The position numbers and the translations under genes are program-made. Positions 456 through 40,262 of a stretch of 64,000 nucleotides of DNA are shown piece by piece (position 1 is the first letter of the stretch; the number at the start of each line of letters is the position of its first letter). This DNA comes from Prorocentrum cordatum (lineage: Eukaryota; Sar; Dinophyceae; Prorocentrales; Prorocentraceae). The notes beneath the pieces are model-generated. The model saw only the letters and a program-made list of their open reading frames with translations. It searched no databases and had not been told where the DNA came from. Location of the stretch: assembly GCA_963575745.1 (NCBI GenBank), contig CAUYUJ010014562.1, forward strand, positions 198,123 to 262,122, written 5' to 3'.

Positions 456-529
456 ACTCACTACTACACTTGCCACTACTACTACTAGTACTACTACTAC
501 TACTACTACTATAGCTACTACTACTCTAG

Positions 530-560
<31 letters not shown>

Positions 561-582
561 CACAGCTAATACTTTTACAGCG

Positions 583-617
<35 letters not shown>

Positions 618-632
618 GATTACTACTACTAT

Positions 633-692
<60 letters not shown>

Positions 693-718
693 CACGACGA
701 CGACAACGACGACGACGA
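1..718. repeat. Imperfect (ACT)n microsatellite, about 0.7 kb
   Basis: Almost the whole stretch is ACT triplets with scattered substitutions, reaching the left edge of the window. It ends in a short (ACG)n run at about 694-718. Long open frames on either strand here are homopolymeric (Val on one strand, Ser on another) and are artefacts of the triplet period, not genes. Confidence 0.97.
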
Positions 719-2267
719 TATCTCATTTGTTTGTTTTTGTGCGGATAGCTGAGATTGCGTATGGCCCGTTGGTCCAGCGAATTGTGTGTGGGTTGCGTAA
801 TGGGGGGGGAGGGGGGGGCGATACATAAGGGGGCAGCGAGGGCTGCATGAAAGGGGCCATTTCGGTCCCCTCAAGGGGCCTTCTCAGGCCCAGCAGGAGG
901 CCTCTAGGGCCCGAGCAGTCTCATTTCATTATCGCCCTCACCTAAGCGACGCCCAGACTTGTTCAGGCTATAAGGTTTCAATGTCTAGCACCATGGCTGG
1001 CAACACAATGCCTGATGGTACTCTGGGCCGCTTGCTCTAAAGTGCCGCGCAGCGCTCCACTGGGCCCTCGCCCTTCCTGAATCACCCGTGTCCTTCCAGG
1101 GCAACTTGAGATCACGGGTTGATTCTCCCTCCCCGTTGATGCCAGCTTCCTCCTGCAATGACCGGTCCCTTCTTTGGATCCCCCCAGGGCTCTCCTTGAT
1201 CCCTCCCTTTCTGACCCGTCCTCTTGGATCCATTCCTTCTCTGACCTCGTTTCACCCCCTGGACCACTGGCTCCCCCCACTCTCGAACCCTCCCTCTTCA
1301 TCATGAGATTCCCATGTGACCCTGGAGCCTCTTCCTGCATCTCTTTCAATGGTCGACGAAAACGACGACGACGACCAGCATCATCTTCCGTCTCTAGAGG
1401 TCGCAAGGGGCCCCCAGAGGCTTCCAGAGGCCCCACAACAAGGTCCGAAAACAACCCCCCAAATCCTCGATCTTCGAACGCACGGCGGCGGCGGCGGCAA
1501 CGGCATCGTCGACAACGACGACCACCACAGCGGCTGCAGCGGCGGCGACGGCGACGGCGACGGTAACGGCGAAGGCGACGGCAACGACGGCGGCGGTGAG
1601 GAAGCGGAGAAGGAAGAGGAGAGCATGATGAGCAGGAGGACGAAAGGAATGAGGGAAGGAGAAGCCAAGATGGAGGCGGGTGGAGCATGGAGCATGGATT
1701 GCAAGAACCACCCACAACGCTGTTCATCGTGGCGTGGGCCCTTGTGTTGTTTTCCGTTTCTTTTTTTGTTGTTTCGTTTCGTGTTCCGTTGTTGTTTTAA
1801 GCGCCCCGTTCCGTCGCTCGCTTCCGCTTGGCACCAGCTTCGTCTTCAGCGTTCGTTCGAAACGCTGGGCCTCTTTTGGCTGCTCGTTTTTAGCGCCGTT
1901 TGTGTTTGATCATCGTTGTGGTCGGTTCCTGATGGATTGGCATGGGTCCGAAGGCCTGGGTCTATCGGAGGTTGATAAGCCTCCTACCCTGACCCGTCGA
2001 TTAGCGAATTGGCCGTTTTCGGTTCGTGGGAGGGCGTCGCGGCCGTCATTGTTGCGGGTCCAGGTCCGTCAGTTTCGGTCCCAGGCCGTTTTCACTACAA
2101 GGGGTGGTTTATGTACTAAAAGGAGGTTCGTTCACCGCAAAGTCTAGAAAAGGCGGCGGCGGCACACGAGCAAATCATGCAGCGCCCTGCGCAGGGAAGT
2201 GGGCCGTGCGGCTCGCGGGGCGGGCCGCCTCCTTTCTCGGCGTCGCCGAGGTTCGGGGAGAAGGGCG
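719..2267. other. No recognisable gene; mostly unique GC-rich sequence
   Basis: Nothing here gives a convincing protein. Within it, 1490-1610 is an imperfect GGC/GAC triplet tract, which accounts for the Gly/Asp-rich and Arg-rich open frames across 1316-1909. The stretch 1730-2140 is T-rich on the plus strand and shows no conserved domain in any frame. Confidence 0.6.
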
Positions 2268-2765
2268 GAGGAGCGGGACGAGGAGGAGGAGGAGACGGAG
2301 GAGGACACTGAGGAGGAGGAGGAGGAGGAGAGGAAGAGGAGGCGGAGGAGGAGGTCAAAGAGGAGGAGGGGGAGGAGATGGAGGAGGAGGAGGAGGAGAG
2401 GAGAGAGGAGAAGGAGGAGGAGTAGGAAGAGGAGGAGGAGGAGGAGGAGGAGGAGGAGAAGGAGGAGGAGGAGGAGCAGGAGGAGGAGAGAGAGAGGAGG
2501 AGAGGGAGAAGGAGGGAGAAGGAGGAGGAGGGGACGAGATGGAGGTAGAGGAGGAGGGAAGAGGAGGAGGAGGAGGAGAGGAGGGATGATGAGGAGGAGG
2601 AGGAGGAGGAGAGGAGGAGGAGAGTTGGAGTTGGAGAAGGAGGAGGGAGGAGGAGGAGGAGGAGGAGGAGGAGGGGGACGAGATGGAGGTGGAGGAGGAG
2701 GAGGAGGGAAGAGGAGGAGGAGGAGGCGGGGACAGGAGGGGGGAGGAGGTGGCAAGAGGGAGGGG
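2268..2765. repeat. (GGA)n purine tract, about 0.5 kb
   Basis: The plus strand is almost all G and A, built on GGA with interruptions. Overlapping open frames are poly-Glu/Gly/Arg on the plus strand and poly-Ser/Pro/Leu on the minus strand, an artefact of composition. A polypurine tract this long could form triplex DNA. Confidence 0.95.
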
Positions 2766-3225
2766 ACAGGAGGGAGGAGGCGGGAGGGAGGAGGCAGGCT
2801 CTGGGAGGGGCAGGGCGGCTCAGGGCAGGTCTGCGCCGCGTCTGCGCGGCGGCGACCCCCGCGCGGGCGGTCGAGGCCGAACGCCGCCGGTGGCCCAGCG
2901 TCGGCCGAGGTCGAGCGATCTGAGCCATCCGTCAGAGAGCCGCGCCCATTCCAAGTCACCAAACCACCAAGCCACCCGAACCCACCACCCGAAGGCCTCA
3001 ACCTGCCCTCCATTTTCCAGTGGGGGGGCGGGGGTCGGGGAGCATGGAAGAGACACGTGGGCCCCGCACCCCCCCCGCAGCCCGAAACTCGAGCCAAGCT
3101 CGGGTCTTCGGGTCGGGTCGGGGGTTGTCTGGCTGGTGGTCGTCGGGGTCGAGCGGTCCGCGCGGCGCCGGAGACCGGCGCCCGCGGCCGCGCGACGCGA
3201 GCCCGCCGCGGGAGCGGAGGGGGGC

Positions 3226-3358
3226 TTGGCATCGCTCGAACGCGTGCACTTTTCCTTCGGCGAGGGCCATCGAGGAGCATCCTTGATCATTTGGCGAAGA
3301 AGCCACGCACGACACCGAAGAAAGCGCAGGGAATGGACGTCCGAGCGATGGCCACGGG
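3226..3358 (+). repeat. Dispersed repeat, copy 1 (pairs with 6522-6656)
   Basis: About 130 bp starting 'cttggcatcgctcg' and including 'gaggagcatccttgatcatt' recurs at 6522-6656 in the same orientation with modest divergence. No protein or terminal inverted repeat was seen. Confidence 0.85.
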
Positions 3359-3555
3359 GGCGGGGGGGCGGCGGCGGCGAGACGCCCTGCGCCCCGGAGG
3401 GGGGCCACCGCGCGGCCTGCGCGGCGCTGCTGAGGCACCCAGGCGCCTCGCCGCGGCCTGTCTGCCCCCGCCGCAGCGCCCCCCGCGGCCGCCTCCGCCG
3501 TGCAGGCCTCGTCGAAAGCAAGTCGACGCGCCGTTCAGGATCGAGGCGCTGGGTA

Positions 3556-3692
3556 TATGAGGAGGGAAAAAACACACAGACATAACTCATCGTCGATTCC
3601 CCAGAAAAGATGGACAAATATGGGAAGGGGGGAGAAAGCAAGACCCAGAAAATATGGGACAATATGGGGAATCCTGTGATTCGTGTCTATTT

Positions 3693-3697
<5 letters not shown>
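3556..3697 (+). repeat. Dispersed repeat family R1, copy 1, leading into (TG)n
   Basis: An A-rich segment ('aggagggaaaaaacacacag', then 'agaaaatatggg' repeats) ends in a TG microsatellite. The same order recurs at 30035-30180 and 30411-30520. The constant position of the TG run at the right end suggests the microsatellite is part of the repeat, as in retroposons with simple-sequence tails. No coding potential is apparent. Confidence 0.8.

Positions 3698-3787
<90 letters not shown>
3698..3787. repeat. (TG)45 microsatellite
   Basis: Uninterrupted TG dinucleotides over 90 bp, forming the right end of the R1 repeat copy. Confidence 0.98.
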
Positions 3788-3790
<3 letters not shown>

Positions 3791-4205
3791 GCCCCTTCCA
3801 TATAGGGGCACGTGTCGGAGAGCGCGTGCTGCAACGCTACGAGGGCATCTGCCGCGATTTTCGGGCACTCCTGCGTCAGAATTGGAGCAGCGCCGACTGC
3901 GCAGGCACCGAGCACAAAAACCGTCGGATTATCTTTGACGAGTCTTGCAGTCGACGACGGCGAGCGCCGTCGACCTCGCCGCCGCCGCCACCGCCGGCGT
4001 GGTCGCCATTGCCGCCGCCGTGCCAGACATCCGACGATGTCGTTCACTGCGCGGGACCAGAGCTTTCGACCCGTCACTCGTCCCTTGCCCAGGCCCGCTA
4101 ACGCGCCCCAGTCGGGCCTGATGATGCGCCCCAGAGGCCGAAATCAAGGAAAAGCACCGGGATTGACAAACATAATGTCGTCGATGATTTGGGATCACCA
4201 CAGCC

Positions 4206-4450
4206 GCCAGCGTGGTCGCCGTCGCCGCCGTCGCCGTCAGCAGTCGGGGACCGAGGCTCGAGGCCTCTGGGAGTCTCCAGACCTCTTTGGGGCCTCCAGG
4301 GGAGACCGACGAGCGTCGCCGTCGTTGTCGGTGTCGTCGTTGCCGACGTCGTTTCTGCCGCTGCCGCCGTCGTCACCGTCGATGCCGTCGTCATCACCGT
4401 TGTGGTCGTCGATGCCGCCGTCGTCGGTCCGCAGTCGTCGTCGTCGTCGG
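4206..4450. repeat. Imperfect CGT/CGC triplet tract
   Basis: Plus-strand triplets of the form CGN/GTC with interruptions. They produce Arg-, Val- or Asp-rich frames depending on phase. Not coding. Confidence 0.8.
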
Positions 4451-4959
4451 AGTCGGAAGAGAGAAGGGGGGACGGGCGGGAAAGGGAGGGACGGACGGGG
4501 AGGGCGAGGAGGATGGGGGGGGAGGGGAGGCGAGAGCCCTGAGCGCAGCAGCACGTGCGGTGTGAATTTTGAGCCGGCGCGGCCCCGCCAGTGCACGCAC
4601 GGCTCACCCCTCTCCTGGCTGCGCTCGGCACGAGGAGGGCCGCGCCCGGCTCCACGTCCGCTTCGGCACCTTCTGGCGGAGAGGCGGCAAAGAGGGGGGT
4701 GGTGACTATAGGGGGGGGCGGATATCATGGCGGGGGCCATGACATTTCCCCAGATTTTATAGCGCCTCTTCTTATGCCATGACGTCCCTGGCCCCCCCGC
4801 TGGGCCGCGCACATGCCGCCGGTCATGATCTGCACCCCCCCCTCTTGGACACCCCCCTCTCTGCCGCTCCCGATTCTGGCGGAGAGGCGAGGGTCAGCGC
4901 AACGGGAAGGGATGGGCGGGCGGGGTGGGACGTCAGACGTGGCGCGGGCCGACAGTCGT

Positions 4960-5127
4960 CGTCATCCGGTCGTCGGTCGGCGTCGATCGCCGTCGTCGCC
5001 GATCGTCGCCGCCGACCGTCGTCGGCGGTAATCGTCGTCCTCGTTGTCGTGGTCGTGGTCGTCGTCGTCGTCGTCGTGGTCGTCGTCGCCGTCGCCGTCG
5101 CCGTCGTCGCCAATCGTCGTCCCCGAG
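4960..5127. repeat. (CGT)n microsatellite, imperfect
   Basis: CGT/GTC triplets dominate, with CGG and CGC variants. Confidence 0.9.
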
Positions 5128-5654
5128 GACGTGGCGCGAGCGCGCCTTCTTTGTCGCAGGCCTCGAGGTTGACACCAACACCAACATCGGCGGTGTGCCT
5201 TCACCGAGGGCAGAAAATCCCGATCCCGGCGATGGTGGTCGCATTCTGGCTTTCAATCAAGGGCATGAAAAACGCCCCTACCCTGGTTTACACAAGGCGC
5301 TGTGCGCAAAAATTCCTGTGGGCTGACGGGGTAAACCCTGCGTGATGTGCCGCGTCCAGGCGGCTCTAGGCTATCCGGGTTCCCAGGAGGTGTCCAGACC
5401 ACGCACTTGTAACACAGGGTAGGGTCGTTTTTTTTCATCCCTCATCCAATGTGACCGAAACCTTCTTACCAACACCGAGATCTAGATCACCTTCCCCCTG
5501 TGGAGGCAGCCCCCCTGTCCTGGTGCTGGTGCCCACTTCCAGGCCGCCAATACCATGTCCCTGGCCCTTCCCTGCTCTGCCTCGGGCTCTGCGGGCCCCT
5601 GGCTGCGCGGGCCGCCCTGCGCTTGCCCGCGCTATTGCGGCGTAGCGGGCGGGC

Positions 5655-5745
5655 GGGACGCCGACGACGACGACGGCGGCGACGACGACGACCACGACGA
5701 CGACGCCGACGCCGACGCCGACGCCGACGACGACGCCGACGAAGG

Positions 5746-5781
<36 letters not shown>

Positions 5782-5995
5782 TCGACGACGATCGACGACG
5801 ATTCGTGACGACCACGACGGCGACGATGACGACCCCGACCCCGACCCCGACCACGAATACGACCACGAATACGACCACGACCACGACCACGACCACGAGG
5901 ACGACGATTACCGCCGACGACGGTCGGCGGCGACGATCGGCGACGACGACGATCGACGACGACCGACGACCGATGACGACGACTGTCGGCCCCCG
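5655..5995. repeat. (CGA)n/(GAC)n microsatellite, imperfect
   Basis: GAC triplets with GCC, CCC and TAC variants over about 340 bp. Arg-, Asp- and Val-rich frames here are artefacts. It is near the reverse complement of the CGT tract at 4960-5127, so the two could be an inverted pair. Confidence 0.9.
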
Positions 5996-6521
5996 AGGGG
6001 CGAGAGGCGAGGGACCGGGAAGGAGATTGCCGCGAGACGGCGCCACCTGAACGAGGCGAGGAAGCGAGAACACGGCCTCGGGAGCGCGGATCGACGACGG
6101 AACCCCTTCCCGGGGCAGCATCGGCGCGCTCCGTCGCCAAATCGGGCGTTCTTGGCCTCAGGTTTCCCAGGGCACCTCCCCATCCACGAAGCTGGCGCCC
6201 ACACCGGATCAACGGATCCGTGATCTGTGCCAGCCTGTGCCCGACAGGAGTTTTTGCCCTGGCTGGCCGCTCTGGCCTGCTCGTCGCGGAACCCTTCCGC
6301 GTCTGAGCGCTTCCCCCCTCCCCCCCCCTCGCGCGGCCGCCCTCGTCTTCGCCCCTCCCTCCTGCTTGCCGGACATAATTCGCCTGTCGGTGGCCCCGAT
6401 GAGCCCCGCGCTGGAGCGGACTGCCTCTGCCTCGCCGCCGGCGAAAAAAAAGTGTCGTGGGGCACCTCCCCGATCCATGAAGCCGGCGCCCACCCCAGAT
6501 CCACGGATCCGCAATCCATGG

Positions 6522-6656
6522 CCTTGGCATCGCTCGGACGTGCGCGTTTTTCCTTCGGCGAGGAACATCGAGGAGCATCCTTGATCATTTGGCGAAAAAA
6601 ACCACGCACGAAACCAAAAAAGACACACAGGAAATGGACGTCCTAACGATGGCCAG
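6522..6656 (+). repeat. Dispersed repeat, copy 2 (pairs with 3226-3358)
   Basis: Same sequence as the copy at 3226-3358, including 'catcgaggagcatccttgat', with a few substitutions and small indels. Confidence 0.85.
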
Positions 6657-6770
6657 TGGCAGCGTGTGCCCGACGGGAGACGCGGTGGAGCGGAGGCCCG
6701 ACGCCAGAGGCTGCCAGCCGCCGAGGAGCGAGCAGTGATGGGCCGACTCCTGACCACAGCTACCATAGGT

Positions 6771-6846
6771 GGGGGAGGGAGGAGGGGGAGGAGGGGGAGG
6801 AGGGGGAGGAGGAGGAGGAGGAGGAGGAGGAGGAGGAGGAGGAGGA
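6771..6846. repeat. (GGA)n microsatellite
   Basis: GGA triplets with GGG variants, followed by four 'accttg' hexamers at 6845-6868. Confidence 0.92.
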
Positions 6847-6868
6847 CCTTGACCTTGACCTTGACCAG

Positions 6869-8488
6869 CTTCGGACCCCTGCTGAGTCGACTACTCTGGG
6901 CCCCACTGCGCTCCCTAGGCGCAATCGAGATCTGGCCGAGATGATTATGTACGGTTTTCGTGGGATTGTTTGCGGCGTTCGTGGGACTGTTTGCAGCGGG
7001 AGCTCGCGTCAAATTTCAGATCGGGCCTCGTCATTTTCACGATGGCCCCGTCGGGCCAGTCCGAGTCTCCCGAACCCGAGTCTCACGTCTCCCCGACTTG
7101 GAGCACGCGCCACGGGACTCCACGGGAAGCCCAAGTGTTCAGACTCGAAGTGTTTCCAAGAAGAGGCAGCTGCAAAAGCAGGCATTCAGAGATCCGTGCG
7201 GATTTCCTTCAGGTCGGCGCTGGGAGCCCCTGGCGGCGGCTCCAGCGCCGCCCCTGGCGCGCTCCGTGCGCCAGGGAGGCGGGTCCAGCGTCGTTCTAAA
7301 ACATCTGCGCGGAGCTCCGAAAGTCGGAATCTGGAACATATACGTTGCCAGTGGCGGGCTGTTTGTCAGTCCCAGAACTGTTTGAGGGTCGGGGACGACG
7401 TCGGAATGGTGTCGTGTATAGTTTTTCCCCGTTTTCCGGGGGAAACATCGACACATGTGTACACTAGGACCCCGTATACATCAGGATCCGCTTTCCTTTG
7501 CGAGTTTCAGTGCGGGGCAGGAAAACACCGATGTATAGAGTTCGGTTCCTTATAATATGATTCAGTTGTTGTTCACCTTCTCGTGCTGGGACGGGTGCCC
7601 CAAGACCACCATTGCCCAACCCCGCTTGCACGCCAGAGGAATCAAGCACGCCGACAGACTGGACGCTGACCATGAAGGCACAGCTGGTCAAGCGGGGAGG
7701 GTGTAAGCCCTGGCCGAAGATATCCCGGAGTCGCGAGTGGCGAAGTTGCAACAGCGCAGAGACCAGACCAAGAAGGAGCTCCAGGTGAAGGTACAGGAAA
7801 GAGAGGAGCAAGCACGCACGCCAGTAGAGCACACGGGATAGACCTGCGTTGGCCAGAAAAGCACTCGGATGTCAATGTTACCACGCAGTAGGACTAGCAG
7901 CAACAACACACCTTGGGACCATATTCAGCGTGGCGTCTAGGGGCCCAAGGACTCCGCCGTATGCCCGAAGGGTCTTCCGAACTACTTCCCGCTGGCGGCG
8001 ACGACGACGGAGCTAAGGGGCCGAAAGCGTCCAGAATCTTCGATCCTCCATTGCCATGCCCGCGACAACCGCGGCGACGACGATGGACCTACGACCATGG
8101 CGGCGACCGAAGACCGACGACACCCGATCGAGAACGACCGACCTCGCGCTTTCACCCCAGATGCGATCACTCTCCACCGGCCTCTGGAGGGCGGCCTCCA
8201 AAGGCTTCCCGGGGCCTCCCCAAAGAGAGCCGAAGCCGTGCATTGCCAGCGACCGCGGCGACGACGTCGACGTCGATGCCCCAGGGGCCCGATCCTCAAC
8301 CATCGATCCTCGACCGTTGACGGCAGCGGCGACCACCACGACGACAACGATGACGGCGGCGGCGACGACAACGACGACGAGGCCGACGATTCCTAGCCGC
8401 GAGGCCTCGGCGCCAACGCCCAGGACCACGAGGGCTGCACTGCGCTCCACTGCGCCGCGGCGCTTGGGCATGCCGCGGTCCCACCGGA
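6869..8488. other. No recognisable gene apart from a foldback repeat
   Basis: All six frames are short or compositionally biased. The only structured element is the foldback at 7188-7319. The stretch 7380-7910 is less GC-biased than its surroundings and may be unique host sequence, but I see no domain. Confidence 0.55.
7188..7319. repeat. Degenerate foldback element, related to 16414-16724
   Basis: The left half (about 7190-7240) and the reverse complement of the right half (about 7250-7318) share the order tccg-cgcagat-like, cgctgg, ccc, ctggcgc with roughly 70% identity by eye. The same motifs form the core of the better preserved foldback at 16414-16724, suggesting one MITE-like family. 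Confidence 0.55.
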
Positions 8489-34812: not shown

Positions 34813-34859
34813 GCTCCTCCTCCTCCTCCTCCCCCTCCTCCTCCTCCTCCTCCTCCTCC
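34813..34859. repeat. (CTC)n tract between the two LINEs
   Basis: CTC triplets fill the gap between the end of the truncated LINE fragment and the spliced-leader relic that opens the next LINE. Confidence 0.95.
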
Positions 34860-34878
34860 GTTGCCATTTTGGCTCAAG
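34857..34878 (+). other. Relic of the dinoflagellate spliced leader
   Basis: The 22 bases starting 'tccgttgccattttggctca' and ending 'ag' match the conserved dinoflagellate spliced leader at 21 positions; the one difference is T for A at position 6. The leader is added to mRNAs by trans-splicing. Finding it in DNA at the exact 5' end of a retrotransposon means the copy was made from a trans-spliced transcript. It follows the (CTC)n tract with no gap. Confidence 0.9.
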
Positions 34879-34987
34879 TTGGGGACAGGCCCCCTTTGAG
34901 CGCGGCAGCTCTCTTCAGAGGGCAATCTGGGGTCAGACCCAGGCGGGCGCTCCATCTCCCCAGCCGCCTCATTTTGTGAGCGGCCAC

Positions 34988-35965
34988 ATGGCGGGCAGCG
35001 CAGCGACGGCTCCTGGCGATGACACGCTCGCTCGCGTACTCTCGGGCATCGAGGGGCTTGGCACGCGCGTGACCCAGGTCGAGGGCCACCTCGGCGACAG
35101 GAAGGCCATCAGGGAAGAGGTCTTCGCGCTTCATCAGAAGTTCGAAGTTCTCGCCGAGCAGTTGGCTAGCGTGCAGGCCACAACGGACGCGATGAGCGAC
35201 GCGCCGGCAAATCTAGGGGAATCCGACGTCATCAAGAGACTGCAGACCCAAGCCGACACCACCGCGCTGCAGCTGAAGGGGTTGGCTGGACAGGTGGCCA
35301 ACGACACTCGTTCTACTGCCAGTGGGTCCACTCTCGCGTCTACGCTGGGGTCTAAGAGGGCTCGCACCGCAGGTCCTGAGACTTATAGTGGCACTGCGAC
35401 GCCTGGGAGCAATCCGTGCAAGGTTTGGATTGGCGGATTTCCTCGGCCTGTCCTAGCTAAGGTGATGATCGCCTTCGCCGACACGATCAAGAAGCAGGGG
35501 CTCGCGCCGCAAGACGTGCCCCTCTCGACGCGGGCGCGCAACCTCGACTCCTCCTTCAGCATCGAATTCGAATCTGACATGAACGCCAGGGATTTCGTGG
35601 ACCAGGTTCGGGCCAAGGGCATGCACTGGGCGGACCCGAAGACATTCGTGCAGACTCCCATGCGCGCGCGGCTGGACGCCCCATCGTCGGTCAGGCGCCG
35701 TATCAAGGCGCTCGGATTGCTGTGGACGCGTGTTTCTGACCATCTTCGAGAAATCAACGGATGGCGCCAGGGCATGAAGCTGGGATCTCAAGGCTTCAAG
35801 GGCACCCTTTTCTTGATTGAGAACGATGAGTGCAGCGTGCTCTTCCAGGTTGAGGAGCTTGAGCAGAACCAGTTCGACGTGAAACCTGAGCTGGAGAACT
35901 TGGCGGCTATCGGCATCGACCAGCGCGAGGCCGAGTCCATGGCGGCCGTCATCATTCCACGCTAG
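34988..35965 (+). CDS. LINE ORF1 protein (RNA-binding, coiled coil plus RRM-like)
   Basis: Intact 325-residue ORF. The first ATG in frame is at 34988; the frame is open slightly further upstream only through a GTG. Residues about 10-110 have a heptad-like pattern ('SGIEGLGTRVTQVEGHLGD', 'LQTQADTTALQLKGLAGQV') consistent with a coiled coil for trimerisation. Residues about 135-230 start 'CKVWIGGFPRPV', which resembles the RNP2 strand of an RRM, and may be the RNA-binding domain. By position and length it fits LINE ORF1 proteins that coat the element RNA and assist reverse transcription. It ends 52 bp before ORF2, in a different frame. No CCHC knuckle is seen. The assignment rests on layout and motifs, not on a search. 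Confidence 0.72.
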   Translation: MAGSAATAPGDDTLARVLSGIEGLGTRVTQVEGHLGDRKAIREEVFALHQKFEVLAEQLASVQATTDAMSDAPANLGESDVIKRLQTQADTTALQLKGLAGQVANDTRSTASGSTLASTLGSKRARTAGPETYSGTATPGSNPCKVWIGGFPRPVLAKVMIAFADTIKKQGLAPQDVPLSTRARNLDSSFSIEFESDMNARDFVDQVRAKGMHWADPKTFVQTPMRARLDAPSSVRRRIKALGLLWTRVSDHLREINGWRQGMKLGSQGFKGTLFLIENDECSVLFQVEELEQNQFDVKPELENLAAIGIDQREAESMAAVIIPR

Positions 35966-36017: not shown

Positions 36018-38531
36018 ATGGGCAGGCCCCATGCGGCCGACTCTGGTGTACCTATGGGTGCCGCTTTGCAGCGCGGTCACGAAGTTGTCACGTCGAGCAT
36101 TGCAGCGTCTTCCCTTCCTGCTCCAGCGGCACGCATGGATCCTCCTCGCTTTGCGGGCGCTGCAGGGGGTGACGTGCCGACCTCTGAGGCACGCCCTGCC
36201 AGCCTTGCGAGCATTGAGGTAGGCGAAGTACCGACCGCTGGGGCTGACAATGGCATTGTCCTGTCTTCCCAAGCCCTTCAATTACATGAGAGACGTACTG
36301 AGAATTCAAGGACCAGCGACAGCACGAGCTCGTCCACTTCGTCTTCTTCTTCCTGCTCCCCTGGTTCTTCGTCGAGTGCCACTGCATCTGGGGCTTCTTC
36401 CTCCCCATCTACGCGTGGGTCCGCTGGGGGCAGGCCTGACTTCGAAGGGCTCGCGCCTTTCGTGCCTGACCAGCCTTTCGCGATCTGTGCGTGGAACGTG
36501 CGTTCCCTTTTCGGTGCCACCTATGCTCCCCAAGCCTCTCACCGTGCTAAGTACGATAAGATAGTATCACTCTGTTCCAGATATGACATTGTCTGTATCC
36601 AGGAAGCTCGTGGGTCTCAGGAGCATCTTGAATATCTTTGCAAGGCAGTTTATCAAGCTTTGGGATTTGGTACATTTTTGGATTCGACGACGTCTGGAGG
36701 CTGCTTTATCCTTCTTCACCCCAAACTCCAGAGGCTGTTCCGTCACGCTGAGCACGTAATTATTGAAAAAGGCCGTATACATAGCCTCACGCTCTACAAC
36801 AACAAACACTGTCTGCAAATCATCAACATGCATCTCGACCACAATCATCAGCCCAGTATCAAGCAAAATCAACTTCGACGCGTTCGGCGGTCTCTCGTTC
36901 CCGCGAGGTGTTGCTCGCAGATTTTACTCGGCGATTTCAACTTTGCTGCCAGAGGTGAAGGGTCTCACCATGCTGACGGACGTTTCGTCAGCAGCGGCCA
37001 GGGCACGGCTAAGGAGTTCGATAGGCTCTTTCCCCACCTCGCTGAGGTGGACCAGGCTTCTTTCACGCGCAGGGTCGAGGGCTGGCAGGATGAGCGCAAA
37101 ATTGTTGTGTCTCTGGGGCGCCTGGACCGCATCTATGTGAGCTTTCCTGCTGGTGATCTTTGTGATCTCCACCAGGCGTCCAAAACCCTCGGCTCCCCGG
37201 CGGGCCTCAAGGAGTTGTCCGATCACATCCCCGTGGCGCTCTCGCTCCAGCCTTCTACCAGTTGCCCAAGTCGCATCCCGTCCTGGGTCACCAAGCACCC
37301 GAGGTACCCCGAGGTTGTCGAGGCCACTATTGCTGATGCTGGTGGCCTGTCCGAGGACCTGTTAGAGGCCAGTATCGAAGTTCGTGACTGTCTGGTTGGG
37401 GCCGCCAAGGCCCTTAAGCGGGACCTAGAGGAGTTGGGAGCTGTTTCAGAAGCCAGTCGTCTTTCGTGGGCTCTTGCAGCTCTTCGCGCGGTCAGGTCTG
37501 GCAACTCTGCGGTTCTCTACAGGGCCCTGAAGGCGCACCCGTTGCTCGACTCTTTCTTTTGCTTCAAAAACTGCTGCCTTACTAGACATACTGAATTTCA
37601 TGCGTTTCTTGGAGGTCTTCAGAACCAGGTTTTAGATGCGGAGATGGAGGAGATCAGGCAGAATGAGCACATCTCAGAGGCTAAGAGGGTTGGCAATATT
37701 AACTCCCTGTACGCGTACAAGAGTGTCTGGAGGACCAAGAACCGCAAGCATGGCCTTGGCGCTGTTTCAGACCCTGCAGGCTCACCTCTGTTTGAAGCTG
37801 ACGAGACTTGTCAGGAGCTCGCCAGGTACTGGGGCCAGGTGCACAAAAAGGTTGTTGTCTCACGGGACGCTTCGAGGTGCTTTGAACCGTTCGTCCAAGA
37901 GGTCCCCCCCGAGATCCGCTGGGAGCTGTCTTTCGACCAGTTCTTGGATCTGATGGAACGGATTCCAGACAGTGCGCCTGGACCCGACGGTATTCCGCTC
38001 TCTGGATGGGCTCGTGCGGGCGACACGGCCACCAGGACACTTTATTCGCTCTACCTCCACATTCTCCAGGCTGGCTCCACCCCCCTCAACTTTAACGATG
38101 CCATGGCAGTCTTTCCCGCGAAGGGCGACGAACCCGCCGACGCGAGCTTCGTGGTTCGGGCTCCAGAGAAGACACGACCGATTTCTCTCATTGACACGGA
38201 CACCCAGATTGTGTCAGTTGCGATCAATATTCCTCTCGGGACCGTTTGCCAACGTGTGGTTTTTCAGCAACAACGGGGCTTTGTCAGGGGCCGTCAGATG
38301 CTAGGAAACATCTTGGACCTGGAATCCAAGTGTCTTCGCTGGCTAGTCCAGCAGAGTATGCAGAAGTGCGGCTACGTCTTTTTCGATGTGAAAGCCGCGT
38401 TCCCCAGCTTGAGTCACGCGGCCCTCATGTTCACCCTGCATAAGATGCGATTTCCAAGGCATCTCATAAAAGCGATCCAGGCCCTGCACACCAATGTTTT
38501 GCATCGCCGTCTCTTTCAGGGGCAATCGTAA
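36018..38531 (+). pseudogene. LINE ORF2, part 1: endonuclease and first half of reverse transcriptase
   Basis: Open for 837 codons from an ATG 52 bp after ORF1. Residues about 153-410 carry the endonuclease/exonuclease/phosphatase motifs in order: 'WNVRS' (156), 'QEAR' (195), 'NMHLDHN' (270), 'LLGDFNF' (303), 'RLDRIY' (368), 'SDHIPV' (401). This enzyme nicks the target DNA to prime reverse transcription. Residues about 650-837 begin the reverse transcriptase: 'SAPGPDGIP' (652), 'RPISLIDT' (721), 'QRGFVRGRQ' (752), and motif A 'FDVKAAFPSL' (788) with the first catalytic Asp. The frame then hits a stop at 38529, although RT similarity continues in another frame. A Ser-rich linker sits at residues 95-135. 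Confidence 0.85.
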
Positions 38532-38920
38532 GCACGGTTTCATCCTGGCCATGGGGCATTAAGCAGGGGTGTCCGATGTCGGGCTCGTTATTTGCTCTGG
38601 CGCACGATCCCATCTTGCGCATGCTGGCTTGCAAGCTGCCGAGACCATTGCACGAGCTCGGGGCCTTCGCTGACGATTGCGGCATGGCCAGCAGTAACCT
38701 CGAGGTGTCTTTCCCGATCGCTATCGATATCTGGGTCTTGGCTGGAGCGGCCTTTGGGCTGCGCATTCACATCGAGAAAACGGTCGTCGTCTCGGCGGGG
38801 AAATACTCGGAGCAGGAGTTTCGGAAATCGACAGCTCGCCTAGGGAAACTTGCCAAGTGTCAGGTCACAACGGTCGCGAGGTACCTGGGGATCATGATGG
38901 GGGACAAAGGGGTGTTCTGA
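38522..38920 (+). pseudogene. LINE ORF2, part 2: reverse transcriptase catalytic core
   Basis: A different frame from part 1. It opens with the conserved RT motif B region ('IKQGCPMSG') and carries motif C 'FADD' at 38666-38677, the catalytic Asp pair. Then 'RIHIEKTVVVS' and 'RYLGIMMG', typical of motifs D and E, lead to a stop at 38918. The frame change relative to part 1 falls within 38517-38531. The only lesions seen in this RT are the frameshifts that bound this part; the catalytic residues are present. Confidence 0.85.
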
Positions 38921-39590
38921 AAGCTGGGCCTGGCCTGTGGCCAAGTTCAGGGAGCGTTCGCACATGGTCCAGGGGCTCGACCTAGGGCTCGCGAAGTCCA
39001 TCTCGCACTTTAATATGCTCTGCATGTCTGTTCTGTCCTGCGCCGGGCAGCTGTGCGCGCCCGCGCCCGAGGTTCTTAAGGAAGAGGAGAGGATGCTTCA
39101 GGTGATCGTCCGTGGGCCCTTCAGTGCCATCCCGTCCCAGGACCTTCAGAACCTTCAGAGGATCGGGTTTCCGATCCAGGCTGCGTCTGTGCGCGTGCGC
39201 AGTCAGGCTGCTCGTTTTCGCGTTGCTGAACGCGTTGAAGCTTTCTCTGAGGCAGTGGAGCTCCTTTTCAGCTTCAGCACCACTGACGAGTGCTGTATTG
39301 CATGGCAGAATCACCCGTTGTGGAAAGGCAGCGCGATGAAAAACCTGCGCGACAATTACTCGGCGCTCACCAGCATCCCTGCCGCCCCGAAAGAGGCCCC
39401 GCACATCCAGCGTGCCATGGAAAAATATTTCACCAGCCTGAACAGCCAGAGCCCCCTCATCACGATTGTGAAGCGTGTCGAAAAGCTGGGTGAGCCTCTG
39501 AGTAGGGGGGAGGGCCAAAATCTTAGGCTCGCTTTTTTCAGGATCAAGGATAAGGTCCCATCCTGTGTTCTCTCGGTGTTTTTGTTTTAA
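38907..39590 (+). pseudogene. LINE ORF2, part 3: post-RT region
   Basis: Returns to the frame of part 1; the switch lies within about 38905-38918. It is open for about 220 codons to a stop at 39588. It includes 'FNMLCMSVLSCAGQLCAPA', which matches the start of the truncated LINE fragment at 33001, and a helical, charged region with no named domain. Comparable LINEs have an uncharacterised connector here between RT and the zinc knuckle. Confidence 0.75.
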
Positions 39591-40053
39591 ATCGCTTTGT
39601 ATTTGTTGGACGTGCAGCGGGCGCTTCAAGGGTGCCATCAAACCATGTATAGCGTGCGGGCTCGACCAGGGCGACTCGCTCAAACATATTATCGAGTGCC
39701 CTCGTTTTTCGGTTGCCAGATTCTTTCTCCCTCTCCTCCCGTCGGCCTTCATCTACTGCTCGTCTGTCCAGAAGCTTCAGGTGTATCGACTTTTCCCGAT
39801 CCCGACAGATGCCTTAGTCAGTGTTGCTCTGTATTTGGACCTTATATATAGCGTTTACCATCATCTCAAGCATCGCTCGTGCACGTCGCAGGCTATCTTT
39901 TACAGCACCAAAGCCCGAATATCGCAGCTCGCTCGTCGTCAGAGTAATCTGTCTAGATTCTTCGGACAGGTTCACTGGGGGCCCGTCCCAGGCAGGATCC
40001 AGCGTCATCGGCAGGTCGCTCTGCCCGCTGGACACGCAGGACGGCCGCCCTAA
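39591..40053 (+). pseudogene. LINE ORF2, part 4: C-terminal zinc knuckle
   Basis: A third frame (change within about 39560-39590). It contains 'CIACGLDQGDSLKHIIEC', a C-x2-C-x9-H-x3-C knuckle as found near the C-terminus of many non-LTR ORF2 proteins, where it helps bind nucleic acid. About 110 further residues, hydrophobic at first, reach a stop at 40051. The (CTC)n tract begins about 50 bp later. Confidence 0.72.
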
Positions 40054-40103: not shown

Positions 40104-40262
40104 CCTCCTCCTCCTCCCCCTCCTCCTCCTCCTTCTCCTCCTCCTCCTCTCCCCCCTCCTCCTCTCCCTCCTCTTCCTCCTCCTTCTCCTCCTCCTCCTC
40201 CTTCTCCTCCTCCCCCTTCTCCTCCTCCTCTTCCTCCCCCCCCTCCTCGCCCTCCCCTCCTC
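40104..40262. repeat. (CTC)n tract at the 3' end of the LINE
   Basis: Polypyrimidine CTC triplets with CCC and TTC variants over about 160 bp, directly after the LINE 3' end. Confidence 0.96.

Follow-up and report, generated by a model that had tools for sequence, protein, structure and literature searches.

In an APE-type LINE superfamily of the dinoflagellate Prorocentrum cordatum, the 5′ terminus is probably a spliced leader that is encoded in the genome and mostly inherited, and what we observe here is most likely a known kind of relic that has turned into part of a LINE's own 5′ end. The copy under study lies on the plus strand of the window, by which we mean the whole stretch of 64,000 nucleotides analyzed here (GC content of 63%). 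When up to three mismatches are allowed, the canonical leader DCCGTAGCCATTTTGGCTCAAG matches the window only once, at 34857 to 34878, where TCCGTTGCCATTTTGGCTCAAG forms the first 22 nt of the element and differs from the canonical sequence by the single change A6>T (21 of 22 bases). None of 100 shuffles contained a match to DCCGTAGCCATTTTGGCTCAAG, and a chance match was also ruled out by reversed-pattern controls (9 versus 34,639, 0 versus 466, and 0 versus 14,218 matches). The leader is directly adjoined by a (CTC)n array that TRF places at 34814 to 34859, the part before the leader (34814 to 34856) being a (CTC)n/(CCT)n pyrimidine tract that forms the 5′ target flank. The first three leader bases, TCC, also fit this microsatellite, leaving the boundary uncertain by 3 nt when this copy is considered alone; across the family, 19 of 38 insertions have TCC in phase with the repeat, and the start is blurred in about half of the copies. 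The observation that a leader relic matching at 21 of 22 bases sits at the 5′ end of this LINE, next to a microsatellite, is therefore real and agrees with the earlier note.

The element behind the leader is ∼5.25 kb long, is set between (CCT)n tracts, and has the organization of an APE-type LINE, with endonuclease and reverse transcriptase (RT) in one ORF2 and an ORF1 upstream. ORF1 (34976 to 35965) encodes 329 amino acids without a confident Pfam family, and no known ORF1 domain was found in it by Pfam. ORF2 (36018 to 38531) encodes the APE-type endonuclease and the start of the RT, with Pfam matches to Exo_endo_phos (E = 5e-11) and RVT_1 (E = 8e-9) that both exceed the curated cutoff. A search of a large protein collection returned twelve relatives of ORF2, the best with 30% identity over 99% of the query, and the best relatives of the RT with solved structures are R2 and L1 ORF2p. 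The RT frame breaks near 38531 and continues in other frames, so that the window copy is a broken element; the remainder of the RT domain lies at 38522 to 38920 in a different frame. Two further open pieces (38937 to 39590 and 39565 to 40053) without a Pfam family are taken, by their position, as the C-terminal part of ORF2. The element ends at ∼40103 and is followed by the (CCT)n tract of the 3′ target flank (40104 to 40262).

We used the first 444 nt of the element to search the assembly (4.13 Gb in 21,875 contigs) and obtained 41 matches, comprising the window, 38 other copies, and one further copy that matched in two pieces. This copy number is a lower bound, with the best 40 of 248 candidates scored, and the counts describe copies found through a 5′ query, 5′-truncated copies lying outside them. 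A leader stands at the beginning of 38 of the 39 other copies fetched, in decayed form in L069, L070, L075, and L087. Because the query holds the leader, detection was aided by it in the 17 of 39 copies that matched over only about the first 90 to 120 nt, and among the 22 copies matched over most of the query, 21 begin at the leader. The lone leaderless copy, L066, is rearranged in this region. These counts rule out a one-off insertion, which the earlier note had held open. In the 200 nt compared upstream, no copy extends beyond the leader into family-wide sequence, and the copies extending upstream without a leader that would have spoken against the original observation were not encountered: shared upstream sequence is limited to the pair L079/L081, a single duplication with an identical 200-nt flank, and a ∼50-nt repeat in L065, L066, and L080. 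This repeat, centered on ACCACCACCACCA and lying past the CCT tract (L065, positions 99 to 160; L066, positions 146 to 200; L080, minus strand), occurs in copies of different subfamilies and is perhaps another repeat whose CCT tail serves as a target.

The flanks indicate a consistent target. In 36 of 38 distinct insertions (the window included, L066 and L081 left out) a (CCT)n tract lies directly upstream of the element, and in one an (AGG)n tract does; only 38 of 3,197 sixty-mers of the window reach the CCT level of these flanks. At the other end, 13 of 16 fetched 3′ ends were readable and terminate at GATGCGAGT(TC), followed by CCT-type tracts. Target site duplications could be read by eye in two copies (L051/L090 and L052/L091), while elsewhere both flanks are CCT repeats. 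Elements of the SLACS/CRE type insert into spliced leader (SL) RNA genes; here, both flanks are of the (CCT)n type in nearly all copies seen.

Base 6 of the leader provides a clean marker to distinguish inheritance from re-addition. The A6>T change turns TAG into TTG and thereby abolishes the AG ending at position 7, the site after which dinoflagellate relics are known to be cut (PMC3229502). Across 39 aligned copies (including the window, without L066), 31 have T at position 6, 7 have A, and 1 has C, and 4 of the 7 A6 copies are stacked copies; restricting the comparison to the 35 single-leader copies (window included, the four stacked rows and L066 set aside) gives 31 T, 3 A, and 1 C. A pattern blind to base 6 recovered 23 sites, largely the same copies, with T6, A6, and C6 in the proportion 18:4:1. 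Genome-wide, by comparison, leaders with A number 14,218, those with T 466, and those with C or G 603, a T6 enrichment in the family with a Fisher P value of 5e-24 that is overstated since the copies are related. Plain decay of position 6 was rejected as an origin of this pattern, as the family has 18 T, 1 C, and no G against 466 T and 603 C/G in the genome (Fisher P = 3e-6, again among related copies). Given that a fresh leader would carry A6, the shared T6 implies that the leader is mostly inherited, and the differing flanks of the copies imply that T6 was transmitted through RNA. Copying by DNA duplication is seen only in L079/L081. The superfamily accounts for 9 of the first 13 listed T6 sites, and the 5′ module described below recurs in diverged form at 7 of ten additional T6 sites, indicating that T6 mostly marks one old superfamily. 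Among the first 45 listed T6 leaders, none lies atop an exact relic versus 3.7 expected (P = 0.02 only), in keeping with T6 destroying the AG used for relic cutting.

A minority of copies carry what appear to be newer leaders. In L058 and L059 a canonical leader is stacked on CCATTTTGGCTCAAG, a relic truncated after nt 7 that is absent from the window copy, and stacked leaders also occur in the duplicate pair L079/L081, whereas L051, L065, and L068 have single canonical leaders. The stacks show, and the canonical single leaders suggest, that fresh leaders occasionally arrive. In a 17-copy tree from which L068 is absent, canonical and stacked copies are interspersed among those with T6. Each copy contributes 179 to 669 nt and supports range from 69 to 99, so leader switches can be counted only roughly, and A6 may be ancestral in places. 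The upper leader of the L079/L081 stack, near position 200, reads GCCAAAATGGCTCAAG and looks as if the TTTT of the near-palindrome CCATTTTGG had flipped to AAAA.

These observations refine the earlier interpretation that the RNA of this LINE was trans-spliced before being copied back. Because the A6>T of the window is shared by most relatives, we assign the trans-splicing to an ancestor rather than to the cycle immediately preceding this insertion; neither the window nor the other T6 copies received their leader by trans-splicing in the last cycle. Most copies agree with the suggestion that the leader has become the 5′ end of the element itself, with 38 of 39 headed by a leader and T6 predominating, while the alternative that each copy receives a fresh leader holds for the stacked and single canonical copies and fails for the T6 majority. 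Aligning the 5′ ends, the comparison the earlier note had proposed, returned mostly single leaders, as either inheritance or re-addition with removal would give, together with a few stacked ones.

Directly behind the leader lies a conserved and structured 5′ module (34879 to 34950). The module is ∼70 nt long, and leader and module together span ∼95 nt. Divergence among copies (L066 left out) is 2.1% at leader positions 8 to 22, 10% over the next 68 nt, and 30% at positions 121 to 200; leader positions 1 to 5 are less conserved, with 9 of 175 bases differing in single-leader copies. The low divergence of positions 8 to 22 could reflect renewal as well as constraint. The dinucleotide after the leader is TT in the window and TT, TC, AT, or AC in close and middle copies; a distant subfamily mostly has GT there, yet it runs into the same conserved module (L087 was left out of this comparison). 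The window sequence does not have the form of an SL RNA gene, in which an intron with a GT/GC donor follows the leader.

Two hairpins of the module show compensatory changes, which indicates that the RNA fold is conserved. Hairpin Ai (34881 to 34893, GGGG-ACAGG-CCCC) has such changes in diverged copies: its pair 1 is GC in 32 of 41 copies, CG in 4, GU in 3, CC in 1, and UA in 1, the lone UA being L057 read in a shifted register. For hairpin C (34926 to 34943, TCTGGG-GTCAGA-CCCAGG) we compared 40 copies, in which pair 3 is UA in 33, AU in 5, GC in 1, and GA in 1; pair 5 is GC in 33, CG in 4, UG in 2, and AU in 1; and pair 6 is GC in 24, AU in 7, UG in 4, GU in 1, and unpaired in 4. The covariation script chooses the best loop length or register for each copy, and in L113 hairpin Ai is not clear and hairpin C was left unanchored. 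The case for structure rests on these compensatory changes, since single-sequence folding of the window copy was no better than that of shuffled sequences (z = −1.07; 26 of 200 shuffles as good).

Three stretches of the leader are able to pair with conserved strands of the module. Leader positions 4 to 9 could pair with GGCAGC at 34904 to 34909 (element positions 48 to 53), where U6 faces A51 in 30 of 34 copies, leader positions 1 to 4 could pair with CGGG at 34944 to 34947 (element positions 88 to 91), which is CGGA in most copies, and leader positions 16 to 22 could pair with element positions 39 to 45. All three pairings stay proposals drawn from complementarity, as the leader is nearly invariant and covariation cannot probe them. 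Pairing of UCCG through CGGA was also considered for other leader-headed families and rejected, being available at 15 of 52 sites versus 16.5 expected; with a broader set of words the count was 21 of 52 versus 13.8 expected (1 of 200 shuffles as high), or 11 of 31 versus 8.2 when one site per cluster was counted.

We propose that the mRNA of an ancestral LINE was trans-spliced and would then have been copied into a (CCT)n tract by the element's own RT. The A6>T variant, which marks most copies, removed the AG at position 7, the normal site of re-splicing, and the RNA of T6 copies would start at or near leader base 1, such that new insertions into CCT tracts are again headed by a T6 leader. Renewal would occur in a minority of copies, as is visible where a canonical leader is stacked on CCATTTTGGCTCAAG, and single canonical leaders may arise when the relic is spliced at its CAAG end. 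A 3′ splice site requires a pyrimidine tract, which the CCT target would supply, and this may account for stacking in copies with an intact AG. The leader and module, whose fold is conserved, would act as a folded 5′ untranslated region, perhaps for RNA start or processing or for binding an element protein. A fuller version, which we put forward tentatively and rate as somewhat less than an even prospect, is that the RNA of the LINE begins at the leader with no trans-splicing involved, the AG having been lost and the leader serving as a strand of the conserved fold, that the (CCT)n tract acts as a fallback acceptor context, and that the same machinery retroposes dinoflagellate genes.

The rival explanations differ in where the leader comes from and in what sets the 5′ end. 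If the LINE RNA were trans-spliced in every cycle, with the old leader removed at its CAAG end, one would expect the single canonical leaders and stacks described above, the abundance of canonical leaders genome-wide, and the pyrimidine tract that immediately precedes the leader. Leaders added anew would carry A6, however, and T6 is found at 18 of 23 sites and in 31 of 35 single-leader copies, making pure re-addition very unlikely. A variant SL RNA with T6 could supply such leaders in trans, and low-level T6 leaders in other families (L031, L114, L115, and L116) are in line with this. Yet T6 occurs in only 2 of 78 leader+GTA sites (GTA donors being those searched), about the rate of the genome, giving no sign of T6 SL RNA genes; small groups of leader+GTA sites on the same contig (such as those on C3764, C9786, C11806, C19578, and C20935) are A6, and T6 is concentrated in one superfamily, so that we regard this source as highly improbable. 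For the stacks in particular, a derivation from tandem SL RNA genes, as argued for Fugacium (PMC6616646), could also apply.

Other explanations leave the leader inherited and place the true start of the RNA farther upstream. A self-cleaving ribozyme formed by leader and module could trim a longer cotranscript, as in R2 and L1Tc, which would suit the precise inherited 5′ end and the covarying hairpins right behind the leader, and in another lineage that trans-splices, L1Tc is described as having HDV-like ribozymes at its 5′ end (PMC4035085 and PMC4748587). We nevertheless consider a ribozyme unlikely. Rfam gave no match at E values up to 1 in 12 copies (2,845 bases scanned) and only five unrelated weak matches at E values up to 10 in the window, with no HDV-like covariance model match in either; moreover, in our reading the strands misfit the HDV layout: pairing of positions 4 to 9 would put the cut before base 4, yet TCC is kept in L085, L060, L082, L056, and L077 with out-of-phase upstream bases (L074 and L080 read CCC and TCT, respectively). 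Alternatively, RNAs might start anywhere upstream, their own (CCU)n lead merging with the (CCT)n target and hiding the true start. The prevalence of (CCT)n flanks and the phasing of TCC in half of the insertions point in this direction, but the same five copies start at TCC despite other upstream bases, and L052 has target-derived CTG units directly upstream that match its 3′ flank; such trimming by homology is accordingly quite unlikely.

The leader-headed element shares features with several known systems. Slamovits and Keeling reportedly described in 2008 dinoflagellate spliced leader relics in retroposed genes, attributed to mRNA recycling. The LINE resembles such retrogenes in that the retroposed unit is headed by the same 22-nt leader and in its stacks, where CCATTTTGGCTCAAG, cut at AG after nt 7, lies beneath a canonical leader; it differs in that the unit is an autonomous-type LINE, that its leader has passed through many rounds of inheritance together with a diagnostic change abolishing the AG, and that the leader runs into a conserved RNA fold. 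R2 elements have a restriction-like endonuclease. Relics in retroposed dinoflagellate genes are also reported in PMC3229502 and PMC12014239. In trypanosome L1Tc/ingi elements, Pr77 is a promoter and HDV-like ribozyme of ∼77 nt, and the RNAs are unspliced (PMC4748587 and PMC4035085). These are likewise LINEs of a trans-splicing organism with a conserved module at the very 5′ end; in the P. cordatum element the 5′ end is the leader itself, and there is no HDV match. R2 non-LTR elements have a 5′ HDV-like ribozyme and insert into 28S rRNA genes (PMC3774820), sharing with our element a precise 5′ end with structured 5′ RNA, unlike it in endonuclease type (APE here), target ((CCT)n here), and the Rfam ribozyme match that is missing here. 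Non-LTR elements that target microsatellites exist as well (PMC4640811) and similarly insert into simple repeats; the features distinguishing ours are the (CCT)n target and the frequent phasing of the leader's TCC. No earlier report of a leader at the 5′ end of microsatellite-targeting elements was found, nor one of leader-headed LINEs in the open-access literature, from which most subscription papers are missing.

Dinoflagellate retrogenes are recognized by leader relics, and the present case implies that finding a 5′-terminal leader is not by itself a sign of a new trans-splicing event and that relic counts read as "cycles" can mislead when leaders are inherited. A 2018 review gives the element that copies back dinoflagellate retrogenes as unknown, with Ty1/copia favored (PMC6050394). 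LINEs become direct suspects for this role, as they carry the leader and many leaders genome-wide lie in the same kind of target. The 14,218 canonical leaders of the assembly may be set beside 496 and 244 putative leaders in two Symbiodinium genomes, obtained by another method (PMC8045281), and exact double stacks number 1,254. Directly upstream of the canonical leader are 13 pyrimidines in 4,007 of the 14,218 cases and 13 purines in 1,345, together 38%, against an estimated random expectation of about two (2^-13); the pyrimidine-preceded leaders listed with their letters show mostly CCT repeats. On this basis CCT/AGG tracts seem to serve generally as sites where leader-bearing retrocopies land.

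We sampled 20 leader stretches of ∼9 kb (one of 4 kb) at listed plus-strand sites and found LINE signals downstream of at least 10 of the 20 leaders, a floor because the 20 chosen open reading frames scanned did not come from every stretch. Pfam LINE signals at E values up to 0.01 occur in L032, L033, L035, L036, L041, L044, and L050, only L032 and L044 exceeding the curated cutoff, and L037, L039, and L049 have a LINE signal by similarity to the proteins of the window. In L044 (positions 493 to 7101), an open frame of 2,203 codons runs from the canonical leader onward and has endonuclease and weak RT signals.

A canonical leader stands atop an apparent second, diverged leader, for example, TCCGGAGCCGTTTTGGCACAGG, in L018 (position 1501), L041 (501), L006 (1501), and L021 (1501), in each case on the plus strand, and L041 carries a LINE endonuclease signal; inherited leaders may therefore exist in other families too. 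Three leader sites on one contig (L043, positions 501, 5742, and 8778) have near-identical flanks on both sides, like a tandem array formed after retroposition, and 13 listed sites with C6 (CCGTCG) in one orientation on one contig (C982, positions 7281 to 76424) probably form an array through which a single mutated leader spread. Finally, an AT-rich IMG/VR contig (L106, positions 2746 to 2913, minus strand) holds two canonical leader sites. One of them immediately precedes a reading frame of host-like appearance, judged by eye, and a leader-tagged gene may have entered a virus.
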